The notes below the pieces were generated by a model. The model worked only from the letters and a program-made list of their open reading frames with translations. It had not been told where the DNA came from and searched no databases. Below, one piece after another: positions 28,226 to 61,753 of a DNA stretch of 64,000 bases. Source of the stretch: an uncultured Parabacteroides sp. (GTDB taxonomy: Bacteria; Bacteroidota; Bacteroidia; Bacteroidales; Tannerellaceae). The DNA lies in NCBI GenBank assembly GCA_944325335.1, contig CALUZR010000001.1, positions 78,835 to 142,834 on the forward strand. The letters are read 5' to 3'. Position 1 is the stretch's first letter; every line of letters starts with the position of its first letter. A program made the position numbers and the translations under genes.

Positions 28226-31200
28226 ATGGTAAACACAGTAAAACCTATTGGCCTGTTACTCCTTCTGTCGGGGCTTCCCTTAGGGCTTGCCTCTGCAGCT
28301 CCCGAGTTAACATTAGTTAAAATGGGGGGGGTAAATGCCACTCAACAAGATTCCGCTTGTAAGGGTATCGTTAAAGATGAATTGGGCGATCCCATTATCG
28401 GCGCTTCGATTCAAGTGAAAGGGACAACCAATGGTACAATTACCGACATGGATGGTAATTATGTCATCACCGATGTAGAAAAGGGTGAGACGTTGGTAAT
28501 CTCTTACATCGGCTATCAAACGCAAGAAGTCGTTTGGAATGGCAAAGACTTAATCATTACCTTAAAGGAAGATTCCAAGCAATTGGAAGAAGTCGTCGTA
28601 GTCGGATACGGCGTGCAGAAGAAGGCGAACTTGACCGGTTCGGTCGTTTCGGTAGATTCAGAGAAATTGGAAACACGCCCCGTGTCGAGCATCTCGGCCG
28701 CCATTGCCGGGCAATTGCCGGGTGTGACCGCCATCCAGAACTCAGGTGCGCCGGGTAGCCAGTCCGGCTCGATCACGATCCGTGGTAAAAACTCCATCAA
28801 TGCCGCCGACCCGCTGGTGATTGTCGACGGAATCCCCGGTTCGATGAGTACCATGAATGCCATCGACCCATCAGACATTGAATCGTTTACCGTATTGAAG
28901 GATGCCGCTTCGGCTGCTATCTACGGTGTGCAAGCCGCCAATGGTGTCATCTTGATTACGACGAAACAGGGCAAAAAGGGAGACAAGGCGACAGTAAGCT
29001 ATTCCGGAACGGTATCTTGGTCATCTCCCGTGGCAAAGCGTGATTACGTCAATGCGTATGAATTTGCTACCTTATTTAATGAGGCGACCTATAATGAGAA
29101 TCCAAATTCGCCGATGCCATTTAGCGAGGCCGATATCGAAGCGTATCGGACAGGCGCGCTTCCCAGCACAGATTGGTATGACGCCGCATTCAAAAAGACG
29201 GGCCTTGAGCAAATCCACAACCTCTCCATCCGGGGTGGCTCAGAAAAGACTGCTTACAGCGCCTCTATCGGTTATACAAATCAAGATGGTCTGACCGACG
29301 ATATTAACTACAAGCGTTACAATGCCCGCATGAATGTCAATGCAGACATCAACAAATACATAAGCCTCGGATTGAATGCTTCTGGATATCGTGGCGTACA
29401 AAAGGACAGCTGGGTAGGATATACAACCATCTTCCAAGGAGTAACCCGTAATTTCCCGACCGACCCGATTTATAACGAAGATGGAAGTTTCAATTACGAA
29501 GGAAAAGACAACCCAGTTGCTGTCCAAGCGAATAACACAGGTTTTAAACGTACTACAGACCAAGAAATCAACTTGACGGGTTATTTAACCGTAAACATCC
29601 TGCCAGAATTGAGTATCAAGGGAGTTTATTCTATCCGTAACTACCAACGTAACCAAGACGGATTCAAAACACATTATACTTACGGTTCGGGAGATAACGT
29701 ATATGATTCCGGCTTACGCGAAGGTTATGAGAAGTACTACAACCATAACTATTATACCGGACAAATCTTGATTAATTACAACAAGACGTTCGGCAAGCAT
29801 ACGATTGGCGGTTTGTTAGGTCTTGAATCCTACGAACATACTTACAAATATACAGAAGCTGAGCGCAAAGGCGGCGGTAATGACGAATTGCAAGAATCAT
29901 TGAATACGTTGGATGCCTCTTCCCAGACGAACTTAGACGGAGGATACGAAATGGCTCGTATGTCTTTCTTCGGACGTATCCAATACGATTATGCCAGCAA
30001 GTACCTCTTCGAGTTCAACCTCCGAAGCGATGCCTCTTCCCGCTTCCCGAAAGATAACCGTTGGGGTGTATTCCCTGCCTTGTCTGCAGGTTGGCGTTTG
30101 TCGGAAGAAGCCTTTATCAAAGACAATGCCGATTGGTTGAGCAACTTGAAGATCCGCTTCGGTTGGGGACGTACGGGTAACGAAGAGTTGAAAGACGATG
30201 ATATTTATCCCGCTATTGCTACGTATGCGTATAGTGATGAAGACCATTTGTTAATGTTCAACAATTCGCTTTACACGACAGCTTACGAAAGCCGCTATGT
30301 CAATAACAACTTGCAATGGGCTACGGTAACGAACTACGAAGTGGGCGTGGAAGCCGGATTCTTGAACAATATGCTCGGATTCGAATTGGCGGCTTATAAG
30401 AAGAAGACCAACGACATGTTGCTCTACTTGCCCATCCAAGGCGTTATCGGTATGGAAGCACCAGCCCAGAACGCAGGTAGCGTAGAGAACAAAGGTTTCG
30501 ACTTGAATATCTTCCACAATAACCGCATCAATAGCGATTGGAGCTATTCACTCGGTTTGAACGTAAGCTACGTAAAGAACCAAATCACCAACATGAGCGG
30601 TACGGAAGGTGCTAATCCAGATAACGACAAGATGTGGAACTTGGAAGGTTATCCAATCAATGCGTACTACGGACTCGTAGCCGATGGATTCTTCGATACG
30701 GAAGAAGAATTGGCCAATAGCCCGAAGCGTTTAGGTACGGAAAAGTTGGGCGACATCAAATACAAGGATTTGAATGGCGATGGCAAGATTACGTTGGATG
30801 GAGACCGTGCGGTCATTGGTAAGAACTTCCCAAGCTGGACAGGCGGTTTCAACTTCAGCGTAACGTATAAGGACTTCGACTTGTCTGGTTTGTTCCAAGG
30901 CGCATTCGATGTAGATGGGTACTATGTGGCAGAAGCCGCGTATGCATTCTACAACGGAGCTACGGCCTTGAAGCGCCACTTAGACCGCTGGACGCCGGAT
31001 AACCACGATGCGACTTATCCGCGTATTACCCGAACTGACCAGACAAACTTCGTGACTTCTTCTTTCTGGGTACAAGATGCGTCTTACGTCCGCTTGAAGA
31101 ACTTGACGTTAGGTTATTCGATTCCGCAAACACTTCTGAGCAAGATCAACATTGCGTCGGCGAAAGTATTCTTGACAGGTGAGAACTTACTTACATTCAC

Positions 31201-55086: not shown

Positions 55087-56706
55087 TTACGCATAATTAG
55101 GATCTTGCTCTAAAATACCACCTGCTTTATCTATTTCCGATTGCGGTATCGGCCAATAATAGAATGCAGGTTTAAATACTTTAATATAAGCAGGTAATGC
55201 AGGATCCACAGCTCCATTCACTAATTTTTCCATTAATTTCCAACGCTTCAATTGAAAATAACGCTGCCCTTCAAATGCCAATTCAACACGATATTCATGA
55301 CGAATACGTTCACGCATTTCTTCCTGTGATAAATCTTCTGGTAAAGAAGGCATTTCAGAACGAGCACGAACTGCATTTATTGCATCATAGACTTTCTGAG
55401 TTGGACCATTTGCTTCATTTTCCGCTTCTGCTATCATCAACAAAACTTCTGCATAACGAAGAATAACGACATCCGCATCCGAAATAGTTGAATAGCTTGG
55501 CATCACAGTCGTTGGTTGAAGTAATTTCATCATACCAAAACCTGTTTGTTGCTGGTCTGTCATTTTTATACGTCCATTTTCTTCATATCCTTCATCAGGA
55601 AATGTTGCATATCCACTATGGGTTACAGTCTCTCTTAAACGAGGATCACGATTCTGAAATAATTTTTCTCGTTCGTTATAATTCTCCTCTTCTATAGCAT
55701 TCGTATTTAACAATGATTCATCTACAGAAACTGTCAATGGAGATTCTCCCCATTTTAGTCCATCTGTACATTCAAATTCATCTACTAAATCTCGAGTTAC
55801 ACCACAAGTTGTCCATGCCCCATAATATAAATCCATACTATGTGTTATATTAGGAGCTAAATAACGAACAGAAAACATAATTTCGGGAGATGAAAGTTGT
55901 TTATCTGACAAGAAATTATCGCGCATTCTATCTGCTAAAGAATATCCCTGAATGCTTTCCAACAAAGGAACAATTTCTGCCATCTTTGTTGGATCTGCCT
56001 TTCCATTTTCATCGTAAGCTTCTGCCAACATCAAACGAGCTTTTAATGCTTTTAATGCTCCTGGAGTAAAATATCCACTCATTTGTGAATCTGAATAAAG
56101 TTTATCCGGTAGAGCAGCAATTGCTTCGTCAAAATCTTGCATTATTTGAGCATAAATTTCTGCACGTGTAGCCTTCGGCTGATACATGTTATCTAAATCC
56201 AAAGAACTCGTCACTAGAGGAACTTCGCGATAGCATTGATAAAGCCAAGAATAAAAATACCCCCGTAATGCTTTACATTGTGCTAAGATAAAGCTACGAT
56301 CTTCATCTGACATATCAGATCCATGATAATTCGCCAAATTTTCTATTACTAAATGAATACGAGCTATTCCCATATAACAATGCGTATACATATATGAAAC
56401 AAAACCTGTCGTATTCGGATCTAAATCACCTAATGCTATTGTCTGAGAACGCCCATATGTATCTTCATTATGCTGGCAAATCGAATTATCTGTCAAATTA
56501 TCAAAGCAAGCAATAATCTGAGACATTTCTCCTGGCCATTCATACACAACAGAAAAACAACCAGCCAGAGCCGAATCAAAATCACTCTTCCGTTGCCAGA
56601 AAATATCTTGAGAAGGTGATGCCGGTGGATCTTTTTGCAAAAAATCGCTACAAGATACAGTTGCACCTAACAACAATATAGATACTAAATATTTTAGCTT
56701 TTTCAT
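55087..56706 (-). CDS. SusD/RagB-family outer-membrane nutrient-binding lipoprotein
   Basis: 539 residues. The lipoprotein signal ends ATVSC (Cys19), then SDFLQKDPPASPSQDIFWQRKSDFDSALAGCFSVVYEWPG. TPR-like helices (AQCKALRGYFYSWLYQCYREVPLVTSSLDL) and the RagB C-terminal part (RYAEVLLMIAEAENEANGPTQKVYDAINAVRARSEMPSL ... RIRHEYRVELAFEGQRYFQLKRWKLMEKL) are complete. It lies 12 bp after susC in the same operon and is the surface partner of that transporter. AT-rich, like its neighbours, and intact despite the frameshift in susC upstream. Confidence 0.95.
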   Translation of the reverse strand: MKKLKYLVSILLLGATVSCSDFLQKDPPASPSQDIFWQRKSDFDSALAGCFSVVYEWPGEMSQIIACFDNLTDNSICQHNEDTYGRSQTIALGDLDPNTTGFVSYMYTHCYMGIARIHLVIENLANYHGSDMSDEDRSFILAQCKALRGYFYSWLYQCYREVPLVTSSLDLDNMYQPKATRAEIYAQIMQDFDEAIAALPDKLYSDSQMSGYFTPGALKALKARLMLAEAYDENGKADPTKMAEIVPLLESIQGYSLADRMRDNFLSDKQLSSPEIMFSVRYLAPNITHSMDLYYGAWTTCGVTRDLVDEFECTDGLKWGESPLTVSVDESLLNTNAIEEENYNEREKLFQNRDPRLRETVTHSGYATFPDEGYEENGRIKMTDQQQTGFGMMKLLQPTTVMPSYSTISDADVVILRYAEVLLMIAEAENEANGPTQKVYDAINAVRARSEMPSLPEDLSQEEMRERIRHEYRVELAFEGQRYFQLKRWKLMEKLVNGAVDPALPAYIKVFKPAFYYWPIPQSEIDKAGGILEQDPNYA

Positions 56707-56718
56707 TTTACTACTTTT

Positions 56719-59667
56719 TTAAAATTCAACATTTACACCAAAAGAACATATTTTGTTTTGAGGATATTGAGCTGCTCTTCCATCTGTTTCACGTTCAGGA
56801 TCCAACCCATAAAACTTAGTAAACGTAACCAAATTATCTCCTGAGAAGTAAATACGAACGCGAGACATTTTAACTTTGTCAGTCCATTGTTTAGGAAGTG
56901 TATAACCAAATGTCAAGTTTTTCAAACGAAAATAAGATGCATTCTGTAAGAAATAACTATTGGGACGTGTATTTTTATTTCCTCCAAAATCATCAAAATA
57001 TAAACGCGGGAACTTCGCATTATATGGATTTTCTTCAGTCCACATACCTTCTACATATTCTTTCGTTGGTGCAGAACCTTGACGGAAAGGATACATACCC
57101 CATTCATTCGTATAGAATTTTTTACCATCTACTCCTTGCCCTGTTAATGACAAATCAAAACCTTTCCAACTGGCACCCAAATTGACTGAATATTCAAAAT
57201 CTGGGAAACGTCCTCCCATTGGGATACGGTCATTGTTATCAATTACATTATCCCCATTTTGATCCTTATATTTCAAATCACCTGGTAATGTATTATCATT
57301 AAATTGTTTTGGAGAATTAGCAATTTCTTCTTCAGTTGCAAATATACCTATACATTCAAGCATATAATACTCATTATAAGGTAAACCTTCTCTTCTCAAA
57401 TAGTAATTATCAATTTCTTCTGCACCAAATTGAGTCAATTTATTTCTGGAACGATCAAAATAGAATCCAGCATTATATTGCAATCCTTCAAAAATGCCGC
57501 TTTGAATCATATTACTATAATTGAAAGCAACTTCAATACCGGTATTCTGTACTTCGCCATTATTCACAGTTGGTGCAGTCATACCTAATAAAGCAGAAAC
57601 TTGAGAACTTCTCAATATGTCAGAAGTAACTTTTTTATACCAATCAAATGTTACATTTAAACCGTCAAAAACTTGCATATCCACACCTACATCCGTGATT
57701 GTCGTAGTTTCCCATTTAATATCACGATTTGCATAAGCTTTTTGCTGATAAGCTACTGTTTCATTCGTTTTATCAAAAGGATAGTTATTTACGCTTTCAA
57801 TCATGGCTTGGTAGGGATACAAACCTATATTTTGATTACCTAATTGTCCCCAAGAAGCTCTTACCTTAAAATTATTCAACCATGACCAATTCAGATTCTT
57901 AACAAAATCCTCTTCCGTCAAACGCCAACCAATCGAAAATGAAGGGAAAATACCCCAACGATTTTCCGAAGAAATACGAGATGTTCCATCATAACGCATA
58001 TTGGCCTCAAACAAATAACGTTCTTTATAATTATAATTAAAACGACCAAATACAGACATGATAGCCCATTCTTCTTCTGCACCTTCATTTGACCAGTTTG
58101 CTTGTGAACCCGCATTGATTACAGGTAAATCAAATGCATAATCTTTTCGATAAGCTTTTACCGTTTCATACTTCTCCGACTCTTGGTTATAACCAGCCAT
58201 AATACTAAAATTATGATTCTGGTCAGCCGTTGAAACATCATATTTCAAATAGGTATACAAATTAGTATAAAAACGGCGTGTATCTTCTACCGTAAAGCCA
58301 TTGCTTCCTCTATCCAAATATCCAGCTTGTTCTCCTGTATGATAATTGTAAACAGGAACATCCGAACCACCCCATTCTTTTGTCTTTCCAGATTGCAAAC
58401 GGGCTGCACCTTTTGTATGCCATGTCAAGCCTTTTGCTAAATTAACTTCTAACCAAAGTTGGGCATTAATATCAAAGTCTTGAAAAGTTTTTTTCGTATC
58501 AGTTCCAATAATGGCTGGCATATTTTTATTATGGGACTCGAAAGAATAAGCAGAAGATGTCCATTTTGTTTCTCCTGTTCCATCATCCGGTAACCATGGC
58601 ATATAAGTAGGAGCTTGTGACAAGGTAGATAATAATACATCTTCTTGACCTTGTCGTGGCTGTTCTCTGTCTCCATACATTAAACTTGTATAAGTACCAA
58701 TCTTGATAAAGTCTGTAATCTGAGAGGTCAAATTTACTGTTGCATTGTATTTCTGATAATCAAATCCTCTCAACGTTCCGGGCTGATTTACAAAATTCAA
58801 GGACACATTATAAGTTGTTTTTCCTGCATTACCAGCGATAGATAAATTATGATTTTGTACGACAGCCGTATTAAGCATGTAATCCAGCCAATCGAAATTC
58901 GGATATTCTGCGCTTCCGTTTCCATTTCGATAAGCATCAATCATTTCTTGTGTATAGGCATTTCCCAATCCGGAATTCTTTTGTGCCAAATTATACAATT
59001 CCATATATTCAGCTGAATTGGTCACTAAATCATACATGCGAGTCGGTGTATAAAGGCCTACATTACCATGATATGCAATATGAGCTTTCCCATCTCTCAC
59101 ATCCGCACCTTCTTTTGTCGTAACCAAAATAACGCCATTAGCAGCACGCGCACCATAAATAGCAGCTGAAGCTGCATCTTTCAAAACTGAAACACTTTCA
59201 ATCACACTCGGATCCAAATGGGAAATATCACCTGGAACACCATTCACCAATACCAACGGGTCAGAACCTGCATCTGAAAAAGTTCCCTGACCACGAATAC
59301 GAAATGTAGTTGATTCATCACCAGGAGTACCGGTTGCCGAATTTACACGTAAACCTGGAACTTGTCCTTGCAACATGGTTGCTGTATTTACAACTGGTCG
59401 TCTTGTCATCTCTTCTCCAGAGACAGCTGTCACGGCTCCTGTTAAATTTAGTTTCTTTTGAGTTCCGAAGCCTACCACCACCAATTCATCCAATGCCTGC
59501 GAATCTTCCTTCAGGGTAATGGCATAGTCGCTCTTCGAGGTTACGGAGACGATTTGGTCTTTATAACCAATGTAGGAGATGCGGAGCTGGGCGCCTTCGG
59601 CCACGTCCTCGATCATGAACTTTCCGTCCATGTCGGTGATGGAGCCGTTCGTCGTGCCTTCTACCAA
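56719..59667 (-). CDS. SusC/RagA TonB-dependent transporter body, out of frame with its STN domain
   Basis: The frame is open from about 59750 (VNQEGKKITGTIVDAQGIPVIGANVLVEGTTNGSITDMDGKF); the first ATG is at 59667, which leaves a protein without a signal peptide. It holds the rest of the carboxypeptidase-like domain, the TonB-box region LDELVVVGFGTQKKLNLTGAV, the plug (LRVNSATGTPGDESTTFRIRGQGTFSDAGSDPLVLVNGVPG) and a barrel ending CSFGVNVEF. Adding one G to the G7 run at 59742-59748 joins it to the STN frame (59739-60104) and gives a normal ~1130-residue STN-type SusC. As read, the transporter is off. After about 59.46 kb the sequence becomes AT-rich, so the gene is also a mosaic. Confidence 0.9.
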   Translation of the reverse strand: MVEGTTNGSITDMDGKFMIEDVAEGAQLRISYIGYKDQIVSVTSKSDYAITLKEDSQALDELVVVGFGTQKKLNLTGAVTAVSGEEMTRRPVVNTATMLQGQVPGLRVNSATGTPGDESTTFRIRGQGTFSDAGSDPLVLVNGVPGDISHLDPSVIESVSVLKDAASAAIYGARAANGVILVTTKEGADVRDGKAHIAYHGNVGLYTPTRMYDLVTNSAEYMELYNLAQKNSGLGNAYTQEMIDAYRNGNGSAEYPNFDWLDYMLNTAVVQNHNLSIAGNAGKTTYNVSLNFVNQPGTLRGFDYQKYNATVNLTSQITDFIKIGTYTSLMYGDREQPRQGQEDVLLSTLSQAPTYMPWLPDDGTGETKWTSSAYSFESHNKNMPAIIGTDTKKTFQDFDINAQLWLEVNLAKGLTWHTKGAARLQSGKTKEWGGSDVPVYNYHTGEQAGYLDRGSNGFTVEDTRRFYTNLYTYLKYDVSTADQNHNFSIMAGYNQESEKYETVKAYRKDYAFDLPVINAGSQANWSNEGAEEEWAIMSVFGRFNYNYKERYLFEANMRYDGTSRISSENRWGIFPSFSIGWRLTEEDFVKNLNWSWLNNFKVRASWGQLGNQNIGLYPYQAMIESVNNYPFDKTNETVAYQQKAYANRDIKWETTTITDVGVDMQVFDGLNVTFDWYKKVTSDILRSSQVSALLGMTAPTVNNGEVQNTGIEVAFNYSNMIQSGIFEGLQYNAGFYFDRSRNKLTQFGAEEIDNYYLRREGLPYNEYYMLECIGIFATEEEIANSPKQFNDNTLPGDLKYKDQNGDNVIDNNDRIPMGGRFPDFEYSVNLGASWKGFDLSLTGQGVDGKKFYTNEWGMYPFRQGSAPTKEYVEGMWTEENPYNAKFPRLYFDDFGGNKNTRPNSYFLQNASYFRLKNLTFGYTLPKQWTDKVKMSRVRIYFSGDNLVTFTKFYGLDPERETDGRAAQYPQNKICSFGVNVEF

Positions 59668-59738
59668 TACATTCGCACCGATGACGGGAATACCTTGGGC
59701 ATCAACAATCGTTCCGGTGATTTTCTTACCTTCCTGAT

Positions 59739-60104
59739 TTACCCCCCCGATTTAGTTTTTATTAACTCATTATTACTGTTATTATCCTTTAAGAAGATGC
59801 GATTGCCTACGATTTTGTAGGTAATGCCGGTTCCATCGAATACTTCTTTCAGGACATTTTCGATGCGTTCGTTCTGGACGTTCAGCGTAACGCCAGACAA
59901 TTCCCTGCTCAGTAACGCATCGTCATAAGAGAACTCGTAGCCCGTTTGTTGCGCGAGGTGCCGAATCACTTCGCCTACCGTCGTCCGGTTTACGCTTATC
60001 TCCACATTGACCAACTGGGGCGATGCCAATGGCACGGCCATCATCGTCGGAGACATTGCCGCTAATAGCAATGCCACGCTTGTACAAATCGGTTTCTTTT
60101 TCAT
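59739..60104 (-). CDS. Signal peptide and STN domain of the SusC transporter (frame stops at G7)
   Basis: 121 residues. A signal peptide (MKKKPICTSVALLLAAMSPTMMA) is followed by the STN (secretin/TonB short N-terminal) domain: VNVEISVNRTTVGEVIRHLAQQTGYEFSYDDALLSRELSGVTLNVQNERIENVLKEVFDGTGITYKIVGNRIFLKD. It ends IKTKSGG-stop, where the stop TAA is created by the length of the poly-G run. In STN-type transporters this domain contacts the FecR anti-sigma protein to report substrate binding; fecR lies just upstream. If expressed alone, the fragment would be a free periplasmic STN domain that might still bind FecR. Confidence 0.88.
   Translation of the reverse strand: MKKKPICTSVALLLAAMSPTMMAVPLASPQLVNVEISVNRTTVGEVIRHLAQQTGYEFSYDDALLSRELSGVTLNVQNERIENVLKEVFDGTGITYKIVGNRIFLKDNNSNNELIKTKSGG
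59742..59748 (-). repeat. Poly-G tract G7 in STN-susC, stopped state
   Basis: The coding strand reads AAA-TCG-GGG-GGG-TAA-AT. Seven Gs give an immediate stop. Eight would give GGG-GGG-GTA-AAT and continue into the transporter. The other SusC of the window has the eight-G version at the same point of the protein. Confidence 0.92.
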
Positions 60105-60148
60105 GATACAATCATTTTGATTAAGTTTAATGATTTATTATACTGTTT

Positions 60149-61144
60149 TTATTTGTTTCGATAACTCACGAATATCTCGTTGCCCTCGATGCGGCAAGAG
60201 ATGGGTGCGATAAACTCGAGGTGCGAACAAATCTCTTCGATCGGTTCGTCTTTCGCATAGACAAAGCGATATTTGCGGGCGAGGAGGCGGGCGTCGGCAA
60301 AGTTGAAATGGACGCCATGCGTCTTGGCAATCTCTTCGGCTATCTGCCCTAAGGTCGCCTCTTCCAACTGCTTTTGTTGCAAATGCCAAACGCCCTCCAC
60401 GTTCACATCCACCTGTTTCACGCTCACTTCATTTTTATCCATATTATAGGTCACCTGCTCGCCAGGTTGCATATCCAATATCGTCTCTTGGTCTTTGTCT
60501 TGGAGGACGACATGCCCCGAAAGGAGGGTCGTCTCCAGCGTATGCCCCGCTTCGTCCGTCCGCACGTTGAACTCCGTTCCTAATACCTTAATATAAGCAT
60601 CGTTCGCCTCGACCAAGAAGGGTGACAACGAATCCTTCCGCACCGAGAAAAAGGCTTCTCCCTCCATCGATACCGAACGGTTCCGCGCCGAAAACGCCTT
60701 CGGGATGCGGAGCATCGCTCCGCCCTTCAGCCAAACCTCCGAACTATCGCGGAGCAGGATGCGCTTCACGCTCTCGCCCTCGGCCACCCGGATGCTTAAA
60801 TAGTCCTCTGAAGCGGAACGGAACATCCAATAGCCCAGCGCGCTCCCGACGATGAATGCCACCATCGCCGCATACCGGAGCGCACGCCGAAGGGGCATCC
60901 AGACGCGTTTCCGATCGATACGCGCTTCGACCTGTTGCAACGCCCGTTCGATAGCCGCCTCCGTATTGTGCCGGTCGAAAGCATCCTTCATCCGAAGCTC
61001 GACGACCTCCTGCCAGATGCGTCCGTTCTTTTCCGAACTTTTCGCCCAAGCAAGGAGGACCGCCAGCTCTTCCGCCGATGTTTTCCCGGCCAAATACTTT
61101 GCCAATATGCTATATTCAAATTCCATTTTCGTTTGCTTTTTCAT
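60149..61144 (-). CDS. FecR-family anti-sigma / sigma regulator
   Basis: 331 residues. The N-terminal cytoplasmic part (KYLAGKTSAEELAVLLAWAKSSEKNGRIWQEVVELR) has the FecR N-terminal feature. One membrane helix lies at about 88-108 (ALRYAAMVAFIVGSALGYWMF). The periplasmic FecR domain follows (LSIRVAEGESVKRILLRDSSEVWLKGGAMLRIP ... EAFFSVRKDSLSPFLVEANDAYIKVLGTEFNVR), with a C-terminal domain similar to STN (LEEATLGQIAEEIAKTHGVHFNFADARLLARKYRF). It should sense the STN domain of the SusC encoded next. No ECF sigma (FecI) gene lies nearby: upstream is a 600-bp gap and divergent mdh. Confidence 0.93.
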   Translation of the reverse strand: MKKQTKMEFEYSILAKYLAGKTSAEELAVLLAWAKSSEKNGRIWQEVVELRMKDAFDRHNTEAAIERALQQVEARIDRKRVWMPLRRALRYAAMVAFIVGSALGYWMFRSASEDYLSIRVAEGESVKRILLRDSSEVWLKGGAMLRIPKAFSARNRSVSMEGEAFFSVRKDSLSPFLVEANDAYIKVLGTEFNVRTDEAGHTLETTLLSGHVVLQDKDQETILDMQPGEQVTYNMDKNEVSVKQVDVNVEGVWHLQQKQLEEATLGQIAEEIAKTHGVHFNFADARLLARKYRFVYAKDEPIEEICSHLEFIAPISCRIEGNEIFVSYRNK

Positions 61145-61164
61145 ATATAATACGGATTACGCCG

Positions 61165-61172
61165 CAAAAGTA
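61165..61172 (-). promoter_or_regulatory. Candidate -7 element for the fecR-susC operon
   Basis: On the minus strand TACTTTTG matches TAnnTTTG, 21 bp before the fecR start. A TTTG lies 23 bp further upstream, slightly longer than the usual spacer. Confidence 0.6.
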
Positions 61173-61260
61173 CGGAGCAAAAATCCAATTTTTTTCAAAA
61201 AAATTTTTCCATACCACCTTTTGTATGCTTGGCATGGTACCTATAATTAGGTGTGTTAGA

Positions 61261-61390
61261 GCACGCAGATGCCGCAGACTAAAGCGCAGATTTACGCGGA
61301 TTTTTTATTAAAGCTAACGCGATTACCTTTTATCCTATTAAAAAAGAAAATCTGCGGTCATCTGCGCTTTAGTCTGCGGCATCTGCGTGC
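61261..61390. repeat. 130-bp inverted repeat with 31-bp perfect arms
   Basis: Positions 61261-61291 (starting GCACGCAGATGCCGCAG) are the exact reverse complement of 61360-61390. The arms continue imperfectly inward through CGGATTTTTT and AAAAAAGAAAATC. No coding content. It could be a large terminator or a miniature repeat. It lies between divergent fecR and mdh. Confidence 0.88.
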
Positions 61391-61436
61391 CCTATTACAT
61401 AAAAATAATTTGCCCCCGGTAAAAACTTGCACGGAC

Positions 61437-61590
61437 GCCTATGGAAACTTCGAAAAGCAATTATCTTTTCTATAAATATCGACGATATTTGCACAAGTAT
61501 CGACGATATTTGTATATCTTTAGCCTAAAGATACAGAAATATCGACGATACGCGAAGAAAAGACAAGCAGCACGCCAAGTTTCCATAGGC
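61437..61590. repeat. Nested inverted-repeat intergenic element, copy C
   Basis: Borders GCCTATGGAAACTT (61437-61450) and AAGTTTCCATAGGC (61577-61590) are perfect complements. Inside are TATCGACGATATTTG-type units (twice direct, once inverted) and the core ATCTTTAGCCTAAAGAT (61516-61532). Same plan as the copies at 10.4 and 20.9 kb, but the border bases differ. Confidence 0.85.
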
Positions 61591-61673
61591 AGGAAAGGAA
61601 GTTTTCCCCGGCACATTCGCATCTTTTTATAGTATCTTAATAGTTCGGATGCAGAAAGAGCGAATATATTTTG

Positions 61674-61681
61674 TACTTTTG
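61674..61681 (+). promoter_or_regulatory. -7 element for mdh
   Basis: TACTTTTG matches TAnnTTTG, 73 bp before the start codon. No exact TTTG at -33 was found. Confidence 0.6.
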
Positions 61682-61753
61682 CAACCAGATAAACAAAGGG
61701 AAAGGCAACTTGCCCTACCCCATCAAAAAGAAACATTTAAAAATTATAGATTT

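Follow-up and report, generated by a model that had tools for sequence, protein, structure and literature searches.

Analysis of the window, a stretch of 64,000 nucleotides from an uncultured Parabacteroides sp., revealed a SusC-type gene on the minus strand whose reading frame is divided by a short homopolymer (Table 1). The tract appears as seven C on the plus strand and is read as GGGGGGG on the coding strand. Translation from the ATG at 60104 yields 121 residues that end in ...LIKTKSGG followed by TAA, and the downstream half of the gene, which extends to 56719, is open in a different frame from this first piece. Pfam assigns an STN domain to the upstream piece and CarboxypepD-reg-like, Plug and beta-barrel domains to the downstream piece; these three domains and the adjacent SusD gene are those of a SusC/RagA TonB-dependent receptor. 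The length of a homopolymer within the coding frame decides here between a full and a cut product. The premature end of the minus-strand frame directly after the STN domain is as originally predicted, and the sequence on either side is indeed intact, with an open downstream frame and no other lesion. The genome contains nine STN matches, of which two lie in one gene (C21) and one in the G7 gene; the seven other genes are all intact, with open frames of 1111-1176 aa.

Table 1. Positions of the tracts and genes discussed in the text
Feature	Position in the window	Strand	Basis or remark
G7 tract, proposed switch	59742..59748	-	same G7 in An277 (L040), G11 in G033 (L012)
Leader and STN domain, stopped-state product (121 aa and TAA)	59739..60104	-	reading frame, Pfam, AlphaFold
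Remaining SusC frame: CarboxypepD-reg-like, Plug, beta-barrel (1007 codons)	56719..59742	-	Pfam, dN/dS
SusD-family lipoprotein gene, 12 bases past the SusC stop	55087..56706	-	Pfam
FecR-type anti-sigma gene, directly upstream of the STN-SusC	60149..61144	-	Pfam; same neighbour in G016 and G033
Second tract of the window, G8, in frame, at the leader/CarboxypepD junction of another SusC	28324..28331	+	in frame also in An277
STN-less SusC with G8 tract, reads through, 1024 aa	28226..31300	+	frame reading

The 121-aa piece was modelled with AlphaFold on an alignment of 14 proteins, with a mean pLDDT of 74.9 and a pTM of 0.62. Residues 31-110 are confidently predicted, and the chain is disordered from residue 111 on, including the glycines. 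The stop therefore lies in a flexible linker, beyond an STN domain that remains whole. The best fold matches of the piece are FpvA, the N0 domain of PilQ and the signalling domain of FecA (E-values from 1e-4 to 8e-4), with PupR and PupB ranking close behind. At this locus (59739-60104), STN comes before CarboxypepD; the available text of PMC7782687 states that CarboxypepD precedes STN in all cases.

An STN-SusC gene with an adjacent FecR gene, the arrangement of STN-FecR signalling, was found in three genomes: that of the window (G000), Parabacteroides sp. An277 (G016) and a more distant species (G033). In the neighbouring stretches of these genomes, no sigma-factor-like gene was observed among the open reading frames beside FecR. 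Within 58500-61700, where we looked for the bounds of an invertible 5' segment, seven inverted pairs were present, all imperfect. Upstream of the FecR gene, an inverted repeat of 58 bases with 84% complementarity and a 32-base spacer occupies 61252-61399.

Tract length and reading frame among related genes

Using 805 bases around the tract, we searched 38 genomes of the same genus. Among the matches listed, only those in An277 (85% identity) and G033 (66%) span the tract outside the genome of the window. An277 shares both the G7 and the stop with the genome of the window and keeps its downstream frame intact, and the tract of G033 is in frame, so that the tract lengths across the three species are G7, G7 and G11. 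Both G7 assemblies are in the stopped state, and the joined state has no example at the DNA level in those two species, which counts against a switch. Of 19 loci with a related barrel, 17 (L040-L056) were checked for runs of G or C, two of which (L050 and L052) start inside the gene and are uninformative. Besides An277, one checked locus has a run of at least 7 at the front of the gene: L046, from Porphyromonadaceae bacterium FC4, with an in-frame G8 within the leader of an STN-less SusC. Among the STN loci L062-L101, which are 29-56% similar to the one in the window, no run of at least five G was found before the CarboxypepD motif, except for a G5 in L076.

Comparison of the downstream half with its counterpart in An277 gave a dS of 0.93 and a dN of 0.025, hence a dN/dS of 0.027 over 1007 codons, with both assemblies stopped; the corresponding ratio for the STN piece is 0.076. 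The sequence past the stop has been kept, and the severed downstream half is, as read from the substitution ratio, under strong purifying selection. GGG accounts for 15.6% of the glycine codons in the long open reading frames of the window, and the G run has nonetheless been kept at a dS near 1. The original prediction had named fixation of all relatives at G7 with decay of the downstream frame as evidence against a switch, and the compared genes do not show such a pattern.

At the protein level, near-identical genes fall into three classes: joined proteins of 1128 aa, proteins with the stop seen in the window, and proteins with a stop in the third frame. On and off states thus both occur among close relatives. 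The 121-aa query retrieved 15 STN-only proteins of similar length, 13 of which end in or just past the glycine run, in differing frames. The GG-stop of the window is found in P0002, P0009 and P0015; in P0001 (19 members), P0003, P0004, P0007 and P0011-P0014 the stop comes a few residues later, in another frame; and P0008 and P0010 stop after four glycines. The two exceptions that do not end at the glycine run are P0005 and P0006.

Joined or partly joined proteins, retrieved by querying with the downstream piece or the STN portion of P0016, number 13 on 33 contigs that are possibly not independent, and their STN is 98-100% like that of the window. Ten of them are 1128 aa long, close to the roughly 1130 residues predicted for the joined product, and the others have 1121, 1095 and 754 aa; the linker KTKSGGVNQEG is common to all 13. 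This count excludes P0019 (STN 93%) as well as P0036, P0137 and other groups with an STN at or below 90%. In addition, seven downstream-only proteins on 33 contigs (again possibly not independent) fit the stopped state and could partly reflect gene calling; P0035 (another N terminus), P0038 (86%) and P0039 (842 aa) were excluded from this number.

The same pairing of stopped and joined forms recurs in other groups, as in P0009 (ITKWGG-stop) versus P0138 (ITKWGGVNQQ) and P0011 versus P0161, and P0150 and P0165 are both joined with linkers one glycine apart. A GG(G)V linker is present in 40 of 61 proteins examined and absent from 12, and in the other 9 the script detected no STN linker; nine of the 12 resemble interrupted or shortened tracts and three are distant. 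The residue preceding the run is variable (S, R, W, C or L), and the run persists. In some joined forms the run is interrupted (LGEV, WWGV, CREV and others); these forms, among them P0137 (32 members) and part of P0151-P0170, may be locked in the joined state. In P0035, an almost identical barrel follows an N terminus that differs and lacks STN, which suggests swapping of N-terminal modules.

G tracts across the genome and the genus

Compared to the approximately 266 runs of G7 or longer expected from a first-order model of the window scaled to genome size, only 31 distinct runs are observed in the genome of the window, and long G runs are therefore scarce in it. A run alone is insufficient as evidence; what carries the case is where the tract lies, its conservation and its length classes.

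In the genome of the window, five of the seven runs of G8 or longer are found no more than 1 kb ahead of a TonB Plug domain (P = 8e-9, a binomial value that assumes uniform placement, with 45 Plug matches and run-Plug distances taken from listed coordinates). These five runs belong to the STN-less SusC of the window, where the tract is in frame, and to genes on contigs C6, C49, C14 and C47. The SusC on C6 has an in-frame G8 within its leader. The tract on C49 (L132, a C9 run) and that on contig C19 of An277 (L185, a C7 run) lie near codon 6 of the same SusC, both out of frame. On C14 and C47 (L249 and L250), two SusC genes have G8/C8 runs before their start codons, a position from which transcription, and not the frame, might be affected. 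The sixth run, on C53, stands at the beginning of a gene for a CarboxypepD-domain protein; this tract is ambiguous, one of two start codons being in frame, and the seventh (C80) is in the middle of a gene.

In An277, four of nine runs of G8 or longer fall in the Plug zone (P = 2e-6). Tracts are found there at genes matching those of contigs C1 (both), C6, C49 and C53, and two further SusC genes of An277 carry tracts, in frame on its contig C25 and out of frame on C91. Among the matches listed, which together cover 150 of 199 Plug places in the next two species, two of four such runs lie in the Plug zone in P. faecalis (G008) and none of eight lies ahead of a Plug in P. gordonii (G009). The association between tracts and Plug domains is therefore confined to part of the genus. 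Within the same genus, G022 gave 624 matches to G8, compared to at most 64 in each of the other 37 genomes.

Tracts out of frame near the start are also seen in lipoprotein-like genes, namely L122 and L123 on contigs C16 and C20 of the genome of the window (both C7 runs) and L171 on contig C1 of An277 (a C8 run). One of the first two has a DUF6562 match and the other an Mfa2 match below the cut-off, and the gene of An277 has no Pfam match. The tract of L118, a TPR protein, is in frame, and we do not claim it as a switch.

We also considered G7 followed by TAAA as a mark of coding switches. Against a reversed control in 393 Bacteroidales genomes, this motif is in excess in some genera (22/2 in G481, 10/1 in G433 and 8/0 in G496). 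Reading of 18 regions from one genus (G433, G496 and G263) placed most of the runs in intergenic positions before a start codon. The motif alone is thus no evidence for coding switches, and it was rejected as such a mark. In these regions (L231-L248), runs of 7-14 G followed by TAAA recur between genes and look like part of a promoter-like element.

Probable slipped-strand switching and its alternatives

At G7, translation halts after the STN domain with the barrel half open in another frame, and near-identical genes exist, as proteins, in the joined and in both stopped classes; therefore, slipped-strand copying of the tract very probably switches the transporter on and off. The changes in length would arise from replication slips in living populations and would be reversible. 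In the stopped state, the barrel half would lack a leader, and thus no transporter would be expected in the outer membrane; the STN piece retains its leader and would be exported. A mixed population could then evade transporter-directed phages or antibodies, or hedge its nutrient use. Slipped-strand phase variation accounts for the length classes, for the selection on the downstream half, and for the fact that tracts sit within leaders or linkers, which tolerate extra glycines with little harm. The STN-SusC is one of several tract-bearing genes for surface proteins in this genome. Counting against such a switch, seven G are short for fast switching. The comparison establishes the frame logic and the coexistence of length classes across genes, mostly observed in proteins that stand in for DNA lengths; the slips themselves, their rate and any effects on uptake, phages and immunity are what we infer. 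Overall, the stop/go switch governed by tract length that had been proposed for this gene is strongly supported by the three length classes, by purifying selection, and by the presence of a tract at the corresponding position in two further species.

The original prediction treated a homopolymer error as its main alternative: the true tract of the strain would be in frame and the assembled G7 an artefact. Near-identical joined genes do exist, and the STN sequence of P0016 is identical to that of the window, as such an error would have it. However, we consider this very unlikely, given the shared G7 of An277 and the third frame found in other data, where P0001 and others stop in it and P0002 has the same stop as the window. 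That the STN-SusC is permanently broken and decaying, as the stopped state of both available G7 assemblies might indicate, is extremely improbable: joined copies are present in public data, the dN/dS of the downstream half is very low at a dS near 1, and no other lesion is found. Constraint this strong would not be expected to persist in a permanently broken gene. Programmed slippage of the ribosome or of RNA polymerase would make both the STN alone and the joined product from G7, with the DNA unchanged. Slippage could occur at the run, which a stop follows directly, and G7 is common to two diverged genomes. Nevertheless, the structure that would stimulate a programmed frameshift is absent, since the RNA downstream has a poorer fold than shuffled versions of it (z = +1.35, with 187 of 200 shuffles folding at least as well). 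In addition, the gene itself already occurs in joined classes, and slippage would leave the third-frame class unserved. Slippage, proposed earlier as a possible source of full-length product, is thus highly improbable as a designed feature; it is not needed to explain the classes, and the folding gives it no support.

A further reading concerns the stopped product. Here the stopped state would be functional in itself, a free periplasmic STN acting on the adjacent FecR with the transporter off. A complete STN fold precedes the stop and the leader is kept, FecR adjoins the gene in three genomes, and the available text of PMC7782687 reports SusC STN domains in anti-sigma signalling. On the other hand, similar tracts occur in STN-less SusC genes, whose stopped product is a leader peptide only, and the stretches read beside FecR hold no sigma-factor-like gene; we regard this function as unlikely. 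The tracts of STN-less SusC genes suggest instead that silencing is the common purpose. The broadest version, in which a lineage of gut Bacteroidales has a poly-G phasome on SusC receptors and surface lipoproteins, and a slip in the STN-type gene replaces a glycan transporter with a free periplasmic STN able to reset the FecR circuit next to it, is distinctly unlikely as a whole.

Comparison with known switches

Among the closest parallels to the proposed slipped-strand switching of this SusC are HmbR and HpuAB of Neisseria meningitidis, TonB-dependent receptors that are switched by poly-G repeats within the reading frame according to the available text of PMC3786947. The likeness lies in the receptor type and in the in-frame tract; the Neisseria genes serve iron uptake in a pathogen, whereas the tracts described here are in SusC-type receptors of gut Bacteroidales, between the leader or STN and the CarboxypepD domain. 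Phase variation of SusC/SusD by a site-specific invertase is known in Bacteroides fragilis, as stated by a title cited in PMC11868660. That system switches the same kind of outer-membrane proteins in the same order, but by DNA inversion, unlike the tract length and frame proposed here, where the inverted pairs near the gene are imperfect. As in the poly-G/C contingency genes of Campylobacter and Helicobacter (PMC8355987 and PMC2823697, in their available text), several G/C tracts occur per genome, with the difference that the longest ones here concentrate on SusC-type receptors. The STN beside a FecR-type gene and the fold match resemble the transducers FecA, FpvA and PupB, although no sigma-factor-like gene is adjacent here. 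To our knowledge, FecA, FpvA and PupB are not switched by a G run.

For Bacteroides, the available text of a 2025 phase-variation review (PMC11868660) mentions inversion but no switch based on G runs, and we found no report of poly-G switching of SusC in the literature searched, which mostly lies outside subscription journals. Switching of SusC by inversion and of Neisseria TonB receptors by poly-G is thus already known, and their combination is without a report in that search. If the proposed mechanism is true, genome pipelines would score such switches as broken genes or assembly errors, and glycan uptake, phage reception and surface antigens would differ between sister cells. DNA flipping is a well-known means by which gut Bacteroidales switch surface genes; slips in a G run would then be a second, simpler way.
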